Shown piece by piece: positions 23,441 through 59,363 of a stretch of 64,000 nt of DNA. The notes under the pieces are model-generated. The model was given only the letters and a program-made list of their open reading frames with translations. It was not told where the DNA came from and ran no database searches. Within the stretch, counting starts at the first letter, position 1. Each line of letters begins with the position of its first letter. The stretch is from Methanosphaera sp. ISO3-F5 (GTDB lineage Archaea > Methanobacteriota > Methanobacteria > Methanobacteriales > Methanobacteriaceae): positions 1,955,426 to 2,019,425 of the forward strand of contig NZ_CP118753.2 of the NCBI RefSeq assembly GCF_034480035.2, written 5' to 3'. A program made the translations under genes and the position numbers.

Positions 23441-24142
23441 ATTTTAAAAGAAATATTAACAAAGGATTATGCAGTATACGATTTCCCATTTTACAAACAT
23501 AATCCTAGAATGCCAGTAACCGGATGGATACTTATATTCATATCAATACTATTAGGTTTCATAGCATCAGCATCAATATATGATTATTCAGAATTCCTAT
23601 CAAGCATAATTCAATGCACAATAATGATCATACCACTACTATACTATCTAGGATGGGATTATAATCTCATAATACGCAAACCCACAAATGACGAACTAAA
23701 AATAGCAATACTAATGTTTCTAGGATACATCTGTTATGCAATAATCATGATAATACTACTGGACACACTAGGATTAACAGGCACTGGAGGAGTAGTACAG
23801 GAAGATTATGTGACAATAGAAACCATAATCTCACTAATATTTTCCATGATGAACGAAGAACTAATTAAATTCATACCATTAATGTTCTTCATGAGACTAT
23901 TCTATAAGTTTTCACAAAAGCGTAAACTATCATTCATAGTCTCAGCAATCATAGTAATGGCAGGTTTCGGATTACTACATTACACTGATGGAGTCACAAT
24001 ATACTCTGTTTTACTAATACAAGGCCTGGGCTCAATCTTCGAAGTATACGGTTACTATAAGACAAGAAATCTATTAGTACCATATTTATCTCACCTATTA
24101 ACAGACGCATTTCTAATGAGCCTAATGTTACTTCAGTTATGA
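23441..24142 (+). CDS. CPBP-family intramembrane metalloprotease, apparent ATT start
   Basis: 233 residues if translation begins at ATT 23441. The family cleaves or binds membrane substrates (CAAX protease and bacteriocin-processing homologues). Several membrane helices are visible, with the motif residues NEELIKF (Glu139-Glu140), GLLHYTDG and HLLTDAF in the expected order. The first ATG is at 23510, but the 23 codons before it read DYAVYDFPFYKHNPR, which looks like real protein. The frame upstream is bounded by a stop at 23408 and contains no ATG, GTG or TTG. Substrate unknown. Confidence 0.75.
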   Translation: MLKEILTKDYAVYDFPFYKHNPRMPVTGWILIFISILLGFIASASIYDYSEFLSSIIQCTIMIIPLLYYLGWDYNLIIRKPTNDELKIAILMFLGYICYAIIMIILLDTLGLTGTGGVVQEDYVTIETIISLIFSMMNEELIKFIPLMFFMRLFYKFSQKRKLSFIVSAIIVMAGFGLLHYTDGVTIYSVLLIQGLGSIFEVYGYYKTRNLLVPYLSHLLTDAFLMSLMLLQL

Positions 24143-50434: not shown

Positions 50435-51241
50435 TTATGGATATAATAATGAATCTTCAATTTCATATGCATTATATTTTTGAGCAATCTTATTAACAGT
50501 ACCATCAGAATACATTTCATCTAACGTTTTCTGAACTTGATTTTTAAGGTCATCATTTCCCTTTTTAAATGCAATACCATACTGTTCAAAAGCAATAGGT
50601 TCATCTAATATCTTAAATTTATCGGCACTTTTCTCTTTTATATGATATTTTGCAAGAGGAACATCTACTATTATTGCATCACAAACACCAGATTCCAGAT
50701 CCATAAATCCAGTATTATATTCTTTAATCTTAGTTAAAGATTTAAAACTATTCATCAAGCTTCGTTTCTCTTTCTCAAGAACATTCAGTGCTGAATGGCC
50801 TTCCTGAATTTCCACGTCTTTATCTTTTAAATCTTTTTGTGATGAAATATTTGAGTCAGCCTTAACAACTACAACTTGGGTATTGTTAAAATATGCTTTG
50901 GACCAGGTATATTCATCTTCCCTGCCATTAATTGTAAATTCACTCCATATACAATCCATCATTCCAGAATTTAGTTCAGTATTCTTAGTACCCCAATTAG
51001 TTATAGGTTGTGGAATAAAAGTCCAATTGTTACGTTCACAAACTTCTTTAGCTAGTTCAATATCAAAACCAGTGTATTCTCCATTATCAGCTTGATATCC
51101 GAAAGGAGGAAATTCTGAATTAAAACCAACTACAAATGATTTTTTAGAATCTAATGAATTAGAATTTTCTGCACAGACACAATTAGTTATTGATAATACA
51201 AATAATGAAATGATTAGTAATGTAAATAATTTCCTGAAAAT
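50435..51241 (-). CDS. Family 3 solute-binding protein, apparent ATT start
   Basis: 268 residues if read from ATT 51241-51239. The N-terminus is a clear signal peptide (FRKLFTLLIISLFVLSITNC then VCA), possibly a lipoprotein-like one. The mature part begins SFVVGFNSEFPPFGYQ and ELAKEVCERNNW, the hallmarks of amino-acid binding proteins. The frame closes at a TAA just upstream, and no ATG, GTG or TTG occurs before the paired ATGs at 50962, which would delete the signal and the first lobe. GGAGG stands 7 bases before the ATT. No ABC permease or ATPase is adjacent. Confidence 0.85.
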   Translation of the reverse strand: MFRKLFTLLIISLFVLSITNCVCAENSNSLDSKKSFVVGFNSEFPPFGYQADNGEYTGFDIELAKEVCERNNWTFIPQPITNWGTKNTELNSGMMDCIWSEFTINGREDEYTWSKAYFNNTQVVVVKADSNISSQKDLKDKDVEIQEGHSALNVLEKEKRSLMNSFKSLTKIKEYNTGFMDLESGVCDAIIVDVPLAKYHIKEKSADKFKILDEPIAFEQYGIAFKKGNDDLKNQVQKTLDEMYSDGTVNKIAQKYNAYEIEDSLLYP

Positions 51242-51248
51242 TGTAATT

Positions 51249-51253
51249 CCTCC
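51249..51253 (-). promoter_or_regulatory. GGAGG ribosome site setting an ATT start
   Basis: A perfect GGAGG lies 7 bases before ATT 51241. No other ribosome site fits this gene. Confidence 0.7.
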
Positions 51254-51341: not shown

Positions 51342-53396
51342 TTAGTTTTCTGATGAGGAAGGATTGGAAGTGATGATGTCTGAAGGATTTGGTATAATCT
51401 CTTTAATTCTGTCCATTTTATTTTTTTTCAATTCTTTGATGAATTGTTCTTTTTTAGGACCAATTAATGCATATTCAAGAACTTCTGCAAGAGTGTTGAC
51501 TGGTATGATTTCTATCTTGTCCTGGTATTTTTTCTCTATTAACACATCATCCTTGTTTGATGCAGGTATAAGTACTCTTTTCATACCGGATTCAGCTGCG
51601 GCTTCTATTTTGTAGGTTACTCCACCTACTGGCAATACATTACCTCTTACGCTTAATGAACCTGTTAATGCTAATGTTTGATCAATAGGTATGTCTTCGA
51701 TAGCTGATATGATTGCTGTTGCCATGGATACACTTGCACTGTCTCCTTCGACTCCATCATATGATTGTACAAATTGTATGTGGATATCGTAATTGGATAT
51801 GTCTTTTCCAATGCTTTTCTTAATAATTGCCCCTACATTTTGTACTGCTTCTTTTGCTATGTCTCCTAGTTTTCCTGCTGCAATTATTTTACCTTCTTCT
51901 TTACTTTGTGATGGTGCTGCTTCTGCTGCAATAGGTAGTACGATACCGCTTGAGTTACCTATTACTGCTAATCCGTTGATGCATCCGATTGCTGATCCTT
52001 GGTTGTTGAATACACTGTATTCTTTTCTTTGTACAATGTATCTGTCTGCTATTTGTTGTTCTAGTGTTCTGGATTGTTTTTTAGCTTCGTATACGTGTTC
52101 TATTGTTACTTCTGGTGCTCCTTCTTCTACTGCTACGTCTCCTGCTGCACGAACTAGTCCACCAAGGTCTCTTAGTTTAAGGGTTAATGAGTCTTTTTTT
52201 CCTGCTCTTCTTTGTGCTTCTTTAATTACTTCTGCTACTGCTTCTTTGTTGAAGTGTGGTATTCTTCCATCATTTTTTACTTCTTGTGCTACGAATTGTC
52301 CTAGTTTTTGACGGTTTTCTGGTGTGTCTTTCATGGTGTCTTTCATGAATACTTCGTAACCGTATCCTCTTATTCTTGATCTTAATGCTATGTGCATGTC
52401 TTTTAGTACTTCTAGGTTTCCTGCTGCTACTAATACGAAATCACATGGTACTGCTTCTGTTCTTACCATTGCTCCACTACTGTTGTCACTTTGTCCTGTT
52501 ATTTGGAATTTGTGTTCTTGTAGTGCAGTTAGTAATTGTTGTTGTGTTTTCATGTTCATTGTACCGATTTCGTCAATGTATAGTACTCCCTTGTTTGCTT
52601 TGTGTATCATACCACTTTCTACTCTTTCGTGTGCTGGAGTTCCAAGTCCTCCTGATTGGTATGGGTCGTGTCTTACGTCACCGAGTAATGCTCCTGCGTG
52701 TGCTCCGGTTGCATCTACGAATGGTGCTACTTTTTTTGCGTCACTGTTTACTAGGAGTTTTGGTGCGACTTGGTTGTTTTTTGGTTTTATCTGGTATAAT
52801 GCGAAGAATACGATTCCTACTGCTATGATTGCTTCTAGGAATTGGCCTGTTATGAAACCTATTGCCATTATTAATCCTATGATTGCTACTGTTAGGATGT
52901 TTTTTCTTTCTTCCTGGCTTTTAACATTTTTTTTGCTGTTTTCTATTATTTTTGCTCCTTGTCCTGCTGGCATTACTCCTACTAGTGGGTTGTTTGGGTC
53001 TTCTAGGTTTGGGTATATTAGTATGTCTTGTAGTTCTTCTGGTGGTAGTAGTTCTGCCATTGCTTTTGCAATCATTGATTTACCGATTCCTGGTTCTCCT
53101 ATGAGGAGTACGTTTCTTCTTTGTTTTGCTGCTTTTTTGATTTTTTCTACTGCTTCTTCTTGTCCTATTATCTGGTCTATTAGCATTGGTGGTATGTCTA
53201 TGTTTTTTGTGTCTATGTAGTCATTTGGGTCTATTTCTGGTAGTGTTTCGTTTTCGGTGGTGTTGCTGGTTGTTTCTTCGTTTGAGGGTTCATTGTTTTC
53301 TTCATTTACTTCGATTATGTCTTCTGTTTCTGGTACTATTACTTCATCATCGATTATGTCTTCTTTATTTATTTCTTCCTCGTTTATATTGCTTAT
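51342..53396 (-). CDS. lonB: Membrane-anchored Lon protease (LonB), apparent ATA start
   Basis: 684 residues read from ATA 53396-53394. After an acidic N-terminal 60 residues comes [20 protein letters not shown], then the AAA+ Walker A GEPGIGKS (100-107), two membrane helices inserted after it ([14 protein letters not shown] and [13 protein letters not shown]), and the protease domain with catalytic Ser in [10 protein letters not shown] and Lys in [10 protein letters not shown]. The first ATG (53186) would remove 70 residues including conserved sequence. No ATG, GTG or TTG occurs before it, and a TAA closes the frame above. GGAGG lies 7 bases before the ATA. Confidence 0.93.
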
Positions 53397-53403
53397 ACAA
53401 ATC

Positions 53404-53408
53404 CCTCC
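53404..53408 (-). promoter_or_regulatory. GGAGG ribosome site setting an ATA start of lonB
   Basis: A perfect GGAGG is placed 7 bases before ATA 53396. The same spacing is seen at the ATT start of the solute-binding gene. Confidence 0.65.
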
Positions 53409-58129: not shown

Positions 58130-58885
58130 ATGACATATTATGATGATTTAACAAAAGACGAAAAAAGAGTCACTATTTTTAAAGAAGCAATAAAACAAAA
58201 TGCACACGGACTAACATACGACCTAGGAACAGGCTCCGGAATACTAGCAGGCATAGCATCAAAATATGCCGACAAAGTATACGCATACGAAATAAACCCA
58301 CTAACAATAAAACACTACACAAAAGCAAACCTACAACAATACAACAACATAACAATAATAGAAACCGATGCAAGCACACATAAATTCACAGAAAAACCTG
58401 ACGTAGTAATATGTGAAATGCTAGACACAGCACTAATAGACGAAGAACAAGTACCAGTAACCAACAACATACAAAAATACACAAAAAAAGACACAATACA
58501 CATACCCCATTCAACATACGATACAATCATGATAGGACAAACAAACATAACCAACATCACATATCAAGAAAACAACAAACCCAACTTCAAAGAATACTCA
58601 GAAGAAACAAAATATAACGAAACAATATTCCGAGAAAAAAACAACACACACATACAAAAAGAAATAACACTAACATCCAAAAAAACAGGAACAATAAACA
58701 CAATAAAACTAACCACATACACCAGAGTAACAGAACAATTAATAACAGGACCAACGCCAATGTTAAATCCGCCTTTACTCATACCAACAAAAGAAAAAAA
58801 GGTAAAAAAAGGAGAAAAAATAAAAATACAACTAAAATACATAATGGGTGGTGGACTAAATACAATCCAAACAGATATACAATGA
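58130..58885 (+). CDS. SAM-dependent methyltransferase (COG4076-like)
   Basis: 251 residues. Motif I is TYDLGTGSGILAGIAS (near 28), followed by VYAYEINP and a VVICEMLDTALIDEEQ segment where PRMT-like enzymes have their catalytic acidic loop. The substrate may be protein or RNA. No ribosome site is seen, so the message may be leaderless. The 3' end overlaps the HycI-type gene, linking it to the pseudomurein-type operon. Confidence 0.75.
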   Translation: MTYYDDLTKDEKRVTIFKEAIKQNAHGLTYDLGTGSGILAGIASKYADKVYAYEINPLTIKHYTKANLQQYNNITIIETDASTHKFTEKPDVVICEMLDTALIDEEQVPVTNNIQKYTKKDTIHIPHSTYDTIMIGQTNITNITYQENNKPNFKEYSEETKYNETIFREKNNTHIQKEITLTSKKTGTINTIKLTTYTRVTEQLITGPTPMLNPPLLIPTKEKKVKKGEKIKIQLKYIMGGGLNTIQTDIQ

Positions 58886-59363
58886 ACTATCAAAATTTTT
58901 AAAACAATACGAAAAATTATTAATATTCACAATAGGAAACACAATGAGGGGAGATGATGGACTAGGACCATTACTATCAGAACAAGTATACAACAAACTA
59001 GTCGAAATAACAGACAAAAACACAGACAACGTATACCTATTAAACACAGAATCAACACCAGAAAACCATACAATAGAAATAAGAAACCTAAAACCATCAC
59101 ACATAATAATAATAGATGCAGTAGAATTTGAAGCAAAACCCGGAGAAATGCTACTAATAAACAAGGAACAAATAGATACCTTCAACATATCAACACACTC
59201 CATGCCAATATCATTCATAATAAACTACATAGAAGAAACAATAGGAAGCAAAATAATCACAATAGGAATACAACCAAAACAAATGGAACTAATAAACACA
59301 ATATCCGAAGAAGTAAAAGAAAGTGTAGAAGAATTAACTAATATCATAGTAGAACTAGTCTAG
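58860..59363 (+). CDS. Hydrogenase-maturation-type protease (HycI), apparent ATA start
   Basis: 167 residues if started at ATA 58860. The family trims the large subunit of NiFe hydrogenases. IFTIGNTMRGDDGLGP holds the conserved GN.xRGDDGxG with the metal-binding Asp, and IIIIDAVEF the next acidic site; HSMPI supplies the His. The ATG at 58944 falls inside the core motif and would destroy beta-strand 1. The frame above it is closed at 58857 and contains no ATG, GTG or TTG. GGTGGTGG lies 5 bases before ATA 58860; ATA 58875 is another option. Confidence 0.75.
   Translation: MQSKQIYNELSKFLKQYEKLLIFTIGNTMRGDDGLGPLLSEQVYNKLVEITDKNTDNVYLLNTESTPENHTIEIRNLKPSHIIIIDAVEFEAKPGEMLLINKEQIDTFNISTHSMPISFIINYIEETIGSKIITIGIQPKQMELINTISEEVKESVEELTNIIVELV

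Follow-up and report, generated by a model that had tools for sequence, protein, structure and literature searches.

The gene hycI of Methanosphaera sp. ISO3-F5, encoding a predicted hydrogenase maturation protease, is very probably translated from an AUA codon at position 58860 of the window (the whole stretch of 64,000 nucleotides that was analysed), and comparison with related genomes suggests that it is one of few genes across the Methanobacteriaceae that start at AUA, AUU or AUC (AUH; ATH in DNA) with the backing of a Shine-Dalgarno (SD) site. Proteases of the HycI family cleave the C-terminus of the [NiFe] hydrogenase large subunit, and the protein of the window is a predicted member. 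The features of the locus are the following.

58860 to 59363, plus strand: hycI, hydrogenase maturation protease (TIGR00142, PF01750), 167 codons before the stop.
58860 to 58862, plus strand: proposed hycI start codon ATA, a position compared across relatives, with ATA at the same place in genera g12, g13, g16 and g8.
58857 to 58859, plus strand: in-frame TAA abutting the hycI start; TAA, TAG or TGA in relatives.
58847 to 58854, plus strand: SD-like GGTGGTGG, 5 nt before the ATA, with an anti-SD duplex of -10.2 kcal/mol.
58944 to 58946, plus strand: ATG, the first standard start of the hycI frame, within GNTMRGDDG; not conserved.
58130 to 58885, plus strand: methyltransferase-like gene with an ATG start and a TGA at 58883 to 58885, whose C-terminal GGGLNT stretch overlaps the hycI start.

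The hycI frame, which ends at a TAG (59361-59363), is preceded by several in-frame stops within 60 nt, and the window sequence holds no in-frame ATG, GTG or TTG between the stop that opens it and ATG 58944. It has 26 nt in common with the methyltransferase gene (58130-58885), whose coding end for GGGLNT is the source of the SD-like sequence; this neighbour gave only weak matches to SAM-methyltransferases (PrmA, RrnaAD) in NCBIfam and Pfam. Begun at the ATA, the HycI protein reaches 147.2 bits against TIGR00142 (cut-off 119.1) and covers positions 1-141 of the 146 of the profile from residue 20 onwards, a match that is above the curated cut-off and near full length. It carries the GN..RGDDG core of HycI/HyaD-type proteases (TIGR00142, PF01750) and differs from them in the start codon alone. 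The original prediction had put the start at an ATA overlapping the methyltransferase gene, with the SD-like sequence 5 bases ahead of it and with ATG 58944 inside the active-site core; its coordinates hold, both the SD and the place of the ATG were confirmed in the window, and the start itself is supported by the comparison with relatives. The same prediction named the ATA codons at 58860 and 58875 as the only start-like codons available, and both are present, but further in-frame ATA codons lie at 58923 and 58932, within the core strand.

We found hycI in all 20 Methanosphaera genomes searched. Of the 19 usable loci, 18 have ATA at the start position and one has ATT; the twentieth (G002, L021), split at contig ends and kept outside the 19, also has ATA. 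No ATG, GTG or TTG occurs at least 17 residues ahead of the GN in 18 of the 19 loci, in which no standard codon could give the conserved N-terminus (the same holds for 10 of 13 loci of queE, described below); in the exception, G012, a GTG stands in frame 3 codons upstream. The second ATA of the window (58875) corresponds to ACA, GTA, CAA, CAG or CTA in other species and, since it is not kept there, 58860 is the better start. Among the Methanosphaera loci, hycI codons 10-24, which lie beyond the overlap, show a pN of 0.25 and a pS of 0.59, and codons 25-84 a pN of 0.34 and a pS of 0.64. The lower pN than pS in codons 10-24, outside the overlap, indicates that the N-terminal extension is under selection at the protein level and hence is translated.

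The overlap also bears on the choice of the start codon. The methyltransferase codon lying over the first two start bases is AAT in 18 of 19 loci and GAT in one, never AAC or GAC, and AAT makes up 68.5% of the Asn codons in the remainder of that gene; this bias is only supporting evidence for the start, as the loci share ancestry. The following methyltransferase codon, Thr (ACN), sets the third base of the hycI start as A, and in the sole species with ATT a Ser codon stands in place of the Thr. Because the Thr codon fixes the third base, we infer that the overlap forbids AUG as the start of hycI, which would become possible only by altering that codon.

Outside Methanosphaera, the same overlap with an ATA immediately after the stop is found in g12, g13 and two of the three g16 loci, while in g8 and the remaining g16 locus the ATA at the same place is accompanied by an in-frame GTG (in g16 also an ATG) upstream, in or before the SD. 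Where the overlap is lacking, the genera carry a separate SD (GGTGA/GGTGG type) with the start codon 3 nt after it, and there the start position, 22 codons ahead of the GN, is occupied by ATG, TTG, GTG, ATT or ATC. Position and codon type are kept in relatives, and the codon is swapped with AUG in orthologs. Of the 61 classified genomes, 27 (in g1, g3, g6, g12, g13, g15 and g16) have no standard start 17 or more residues ahead of the GN, a count that excludes 8 of the 69 listed loci which the recognition pattern missed; in g17 and g18, which belong to other families of the order, 12 of 12 offer one. This distribution indicates that AUH starts are spread family-wide in the Methanobacteriaceae and are not limited to Methanosphaera. 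It may be, although we propose this only tentatively, that hycI retains an AUH start in several genera even though AUG is one mutation away where the overlap permits it.

Concerning the neighbouring gene, several genera have a methyltransferase ending in MGGGL[ND][TS] that runs over the hycI start (window 58840-58862; L031-L034, L052, L274-L278), as probably does g17 of another family, so that the gene pair and its overlap look old. A separate observation concerns g10, where the open frame of hycI is 234-260 codons long in several genomes vs the usual 160-190 elsewhere; some g10 genomes gave no match to the HycI of the window at 1e-20.

Three other ways of reading the hycI locus were weighed against a start at AUA 58860. 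The first is that translation begins at ATG 58944, the first standard start, and that the stretch upstream is untranslated; the shortened product would still pass TIGR00142, with 134.6 bits against the cut-off of 119.1. However, this form lacks profile positions 1-9, the GN of the core included, the ATG is not conserved (the aligned codon is TTA, CTT, ATT, ATC, CTA or others in relatives) and codons 10-24 evolve in a protein-like manner, which together make such a start very improbable. As the 26-nt overlap sets the two frames side by side, it is also conceivable that readthrough of a stop codon or a +1 frameshift from the methyltransferase produces a fusion protein. We give this hardly any credit: the hycI frame is closed by several stops in the 60 nt upstream, the stop preceding the ATA varies between TAA, TAG and TGA, the genera without overlap use ATG, TTG, GTG, ATT or ATC behind an SD of their own, and queE and lonB show the same kind of codons with no partner frame upstream.

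A third reading takes hycI from an ATG at 58882, either with -1 slippage on A-AAT-TTT (58893-58899) or on the assumption that the assembly lacks one T. Here the ATG belongs to an ATGA stop-start overlap of the usual kind, a heptamer of the X-XXY-YYZ form comes after it, and one extra T would join its frame to that of hycI; but neither the ATG nor the heptamer is kept in relatives (e.g. L003, L008, L020), the hycI frame and its ATA or ATT are identical in the 19 Methanosphaera loci without any indel, and queE and lonB have no ATGA/heptamer arrangement. An upstream slip or a lost base is thus extremely unlikely, and programmed -1 frameshifting was rejected, no conserved slippery heptamer with an upstream ATG having been found. 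Initiation at AUA 58860 is the reading that we retain in what follows.

The window contains three further genes for which ATA or ATT starts had been claimed.

51342 to 53396, minus strand: lonB, ATP-dependent protease LonB (TIGR00764, 946 bits), in which the first standard start is codon 75 of the open frame.
53394 to 53396, minus strand: proposed lonB start ATA, with GGAGG at 53404-53408.
50435 to 51241, minus strand: family 3 solute-binding protein (PF00497) with a signal-peptide-like N-terminus.
51239 to 51241, minus strand: proposed ATT start of the solute-binding protein, with GGAGG at 51249-51253.
23441 to 24142, plus strand: CPBP/Rce1-like membrane protein, proposed ATT start at 23441, with a weak SD, AAGGGGAT, at a spacing beyond the optimum.

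Of 12 Methanosphaera lonB loci, 6 have ATA and 3 have ATT at the usual spacing after GGAGG; the others have ATG (G013) and TTG (G003), and no codon was assigned in G001. The residue after the start is Thr in 6 of the 9 ATH loci, just as Thr follows the ATG in g12 and g13. In one genome (G007:C91:19355-21491) lonB is broken into two pieces that overlap and lie in different frames, owing to either a frameshift or a fault of the assembly. The solute-binding protein starts with ATT in G000 and G010, and its homologs with ATA (G009, G019) or ATG (G007, G008). For the CPBP gene, the closest homolog in another species (G015) has GGTGAAAAT-ATT at the same place, and more distant homologs start with ATG or TTG. 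Of the claims made for these genes, those for lonB and the solute-binding protein are well supported, whereas the one for the CPBP gene, with its poor SD, is supported only moderately.

The gene queE was absent from the original prediction and surfaced in the scan described below. Its start is ATT in 9, ATC in 3 and ATG in one (G013) of 13 Methanosphaera loci; an in-frame ATG lies ahead of the SD in two of the ATT loci, which leaves 10 of the 13 without any standard start upstream of the core. In other genera it is ATG in all 17 loci shown, at the place of the Methanosphaera ATT/ATC or one codon from it, counting two loci that the script scored as TTG and in which an ATG directly precedes that TTG. 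Across these loci (L161-L173 for Methanosphaera), ATT or ATC with a strong SD in nearly all Methanosphaera stands against ATG with a weak SD in the other genera, a natural swap of the start codon. ATA, ATT and ATC behind GGAGGT were also seen in large secreted proteins with signal-peptide-like N-termini (G003 57137, 119962, 122739; G016 45813, 116566; positions in the joined samples). The samples of G016 and G003 have 366 ortholog pairs in common, and among the large secreted proteins two pairs are non-standard in both species and one pair has ATC vs ATG.

We then compared the strength of the SD sites. For queE the 12 ATH loci reach a median SD/anti-SD energy of -10.0 kcal/mol, against -3.85 for the remaining 18 (p = 1.6e-5); the result did not change with a fixed window. 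The only Methanosphaera queE locus with ATG has an SD of -4.0 kcal/mol. Over 907 ATG-first frames from the sample, the median is -5.8 kcal/mol. For hycI the medians are -11.2 kcal/mol with ATH (n=28) and -6.05 with standard starts (n=36), an advantage due in part to the overlapping Gly codons, which form the SD; where there is no overlap, the ATH loci of hycI have -8.4 to -9.9 and are no stronger than the TTG starts of g4 (-8.9 to -9.5). A strong SD at the optimal spacing, beyond that of AUG orthologs, was therefore found for queE and hycI, and that of the CPBP gene is poor. These differences point to compensation of a weak start codon by the SD.

To evaluate whether such starts exceed chance, as the original prediction would require, we scanned 1.26 Mb of Methanosphaera sequence, which came from five genomes and included the window, together with 200 kb from each of four other genomes. 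In ATG-first frames the start codon peaks 3-4 nt after the GGAGGTGAT alignment, and the strict scan considered codons at least 6 codons upstream of the first standard start with an SD core at spacing 3-4. In Methanosphaera, 12 of 962 ATH codons and 16 of 5334 other codons were so placed, with p = 4e-4; this value, like the one for queE, overstates the case as the relatives share descent. The corresponding counts are 3/77 vs 1/579 in G036 and 4/213 vs 4/1097 in G040, while the outgroup samples, which are small, gave no SD-placed ATH in the strict scan (0/90 in G092 and 0/103 in G105). Taking Methanosphaera, G036 and G040 together, there is a peak at spacing 3 (ATH 15/1252, ATG 123/1089, other codons 17/7010), and ATH is close to background at most other spacings. 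The share of frames involved in the strict scan is about 1-2% (12/1157, 3/174 and 4/196). From these samples of Methanosphaera and two other genera it is evident that an excess exists.

It should be noted that the AUH signal requires exact spacing and no standard start nearby. With a loose SD definition, the first codons of 418 frames showed little excess (ratios of 1.3 for ATA and 1.1 for ATT), and this loose scan is uninformative because Gly codons inside genes resemble SD sites. One earlier codon scan gave high ratios also for ACG, AAC and TTT, which we think are due to true SD sites nearby. As the frames of the scan were selected by their SD, its strength in them was not counted as evidence. 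A screen by conservation alone, with 107 ortholog groups from 463 frames, returned mostly antisense frames, hycI and lonB alone being clear.

The initiation machinery was also compared, as the original prediction had proposed, and neither the initiator tRNA nor the aIF1 core looks unusual. The initiator-tRNA pattern occurs in one copy in each of 41 of 44 genomes, and the 30 loci compared are near identical, with CAU and the GGG/CCC pairs; the genera differ hardly at all in the aIF1 core. The aIF1 of Methanosphaera ends in DTIEIK (L191, L195, L197-L201, L213, L217) and lacks the basic C-terminal tail present in most other genera compared (L192-L194, L202-L211). Loss of this tail was considered as a cause of the AUH starts and dropped, g12 being likewise tail-less.

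Several unrelated genes are affected, and together with the missing tail this could speak for a general loss of start fidelity, through an altered aIF1, initiator tRNA or 16S rRNA, that would make AUH starts cheap everywhere. We regard such a loss as unlikely: the aIF1 core and the initiator tRNA are near identical to those of other genera, the tail is missing from g12 as well, and only about 1-2% of frames are affected, which carry strong SD sites. An ordinary initiator tRNA and aIF1 core, together with strong SD sites, argue for weak starts compensated gene by gene, and we read the AUH starts in this way. The proposal of relaxed AUA/AUU initiation in this lineage is consequently borne out as regards the AUH pattern; "relaxed" is too broad a word given the ordinary tRNA and aIF1 and the strong SD sites, and the pattern extends beyond one genus.

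With SD-compensated weak starts as the preferred reading, the GGTGGTGG within the last part of the methyltransferase gene would position the ribosome for hycI, and Met-tRNAi would pair with the first two bases of the AUA and tolerate the mismatch at the third. AUA, AUU or AUC about 3-4 nt behind a strong SD would start about 1 in 100 genes in the Methanobacteriaceae, among them hycI, lonB, queE, the solute-binding protein and the large secreted proteins. We infer that AUH codons would initiate with methionine and at low output, with possible regulation, for example via aIF1. Whether AUH with an extended SD forms a standing further class of archaeal starts, holding genes such as hycI, lonB, queE and those for surface proteins at low or aIF1-controlled output, is more doubtful, and from the sequences compared we suggest it as a possibility.

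Starts of this kind have been described in other organisms. In Staphylococcus aureus, cvfC1, ccpN, citZ and infC have AUU or AUA starts with extended Shine-Dalgarno motifs, and ribosome profiling and reporters revealed that AUU/AUA lowers expression to about 10-30% of AUG (PMC13009471). As in the cases reported there, the starts considered here depart from AUG in the third base, are kept in relatives and stand behind a strong extended SD; but S. aureus is a bacterium with IF3 and its starts were measured, whereas here archaea with aIF1 are concerned, by comparison alone, with more genes and in several genera (PMC13009471). Another paper mentions the AUU autoregulation of infC in E. coli and, for sigR of Streptomyces, a GTC start (PMC5472188), which resemble the present cases in that a non-standard start was retained in evolution and overlooked by annotation. 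The infC start, however, is controlled by IF3, a bacterial factor (PMC5472188), while regulation of the Methanobacteriaceae cases is hypothetical.

Among archaea, an ATT start of the Asgard tubulin gene atubA was deduced because the first beta strand was missing and a ribosome-binding site was well placed; although this case is also archaeal, it is a single gene, and the passage that treats it holds no comparison of start codons across relatives (PMC13394414). In the part available of a review of archaeal initiation, AUG, GUG and UUG are the only start codons named (PMC7531240), and our literature search, which left subscription papers mostly outside, found no AUA, AUU or AUC starts described for methanogens. 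AUH starts being known from bacteria and from one Asgard gene, the Methanobacteriaceae set is a variant of that kind. If our reading is correct, the N-termini of LonB, HycI and QueE are likely misannotated (cut short) in public genomes, gene finders require an additional rule for the Methanobacteriaceae, and the natural start-codon swaps with their SD compensation offer material for testing how aIF1 reads the third base.

A last observation concerns the gene for aIF1 itself. In Methanosphaera its start region has a GGGAG followed after six bases by an ATA (replaced by CTA in two genomes) and, after one further codon, by an ATG; the ATA occupies the place of the ATG of other genera. The ATG two codons later weakens the case, but the arrangement could point to an infC-like self-control of a start-fidelity factor.
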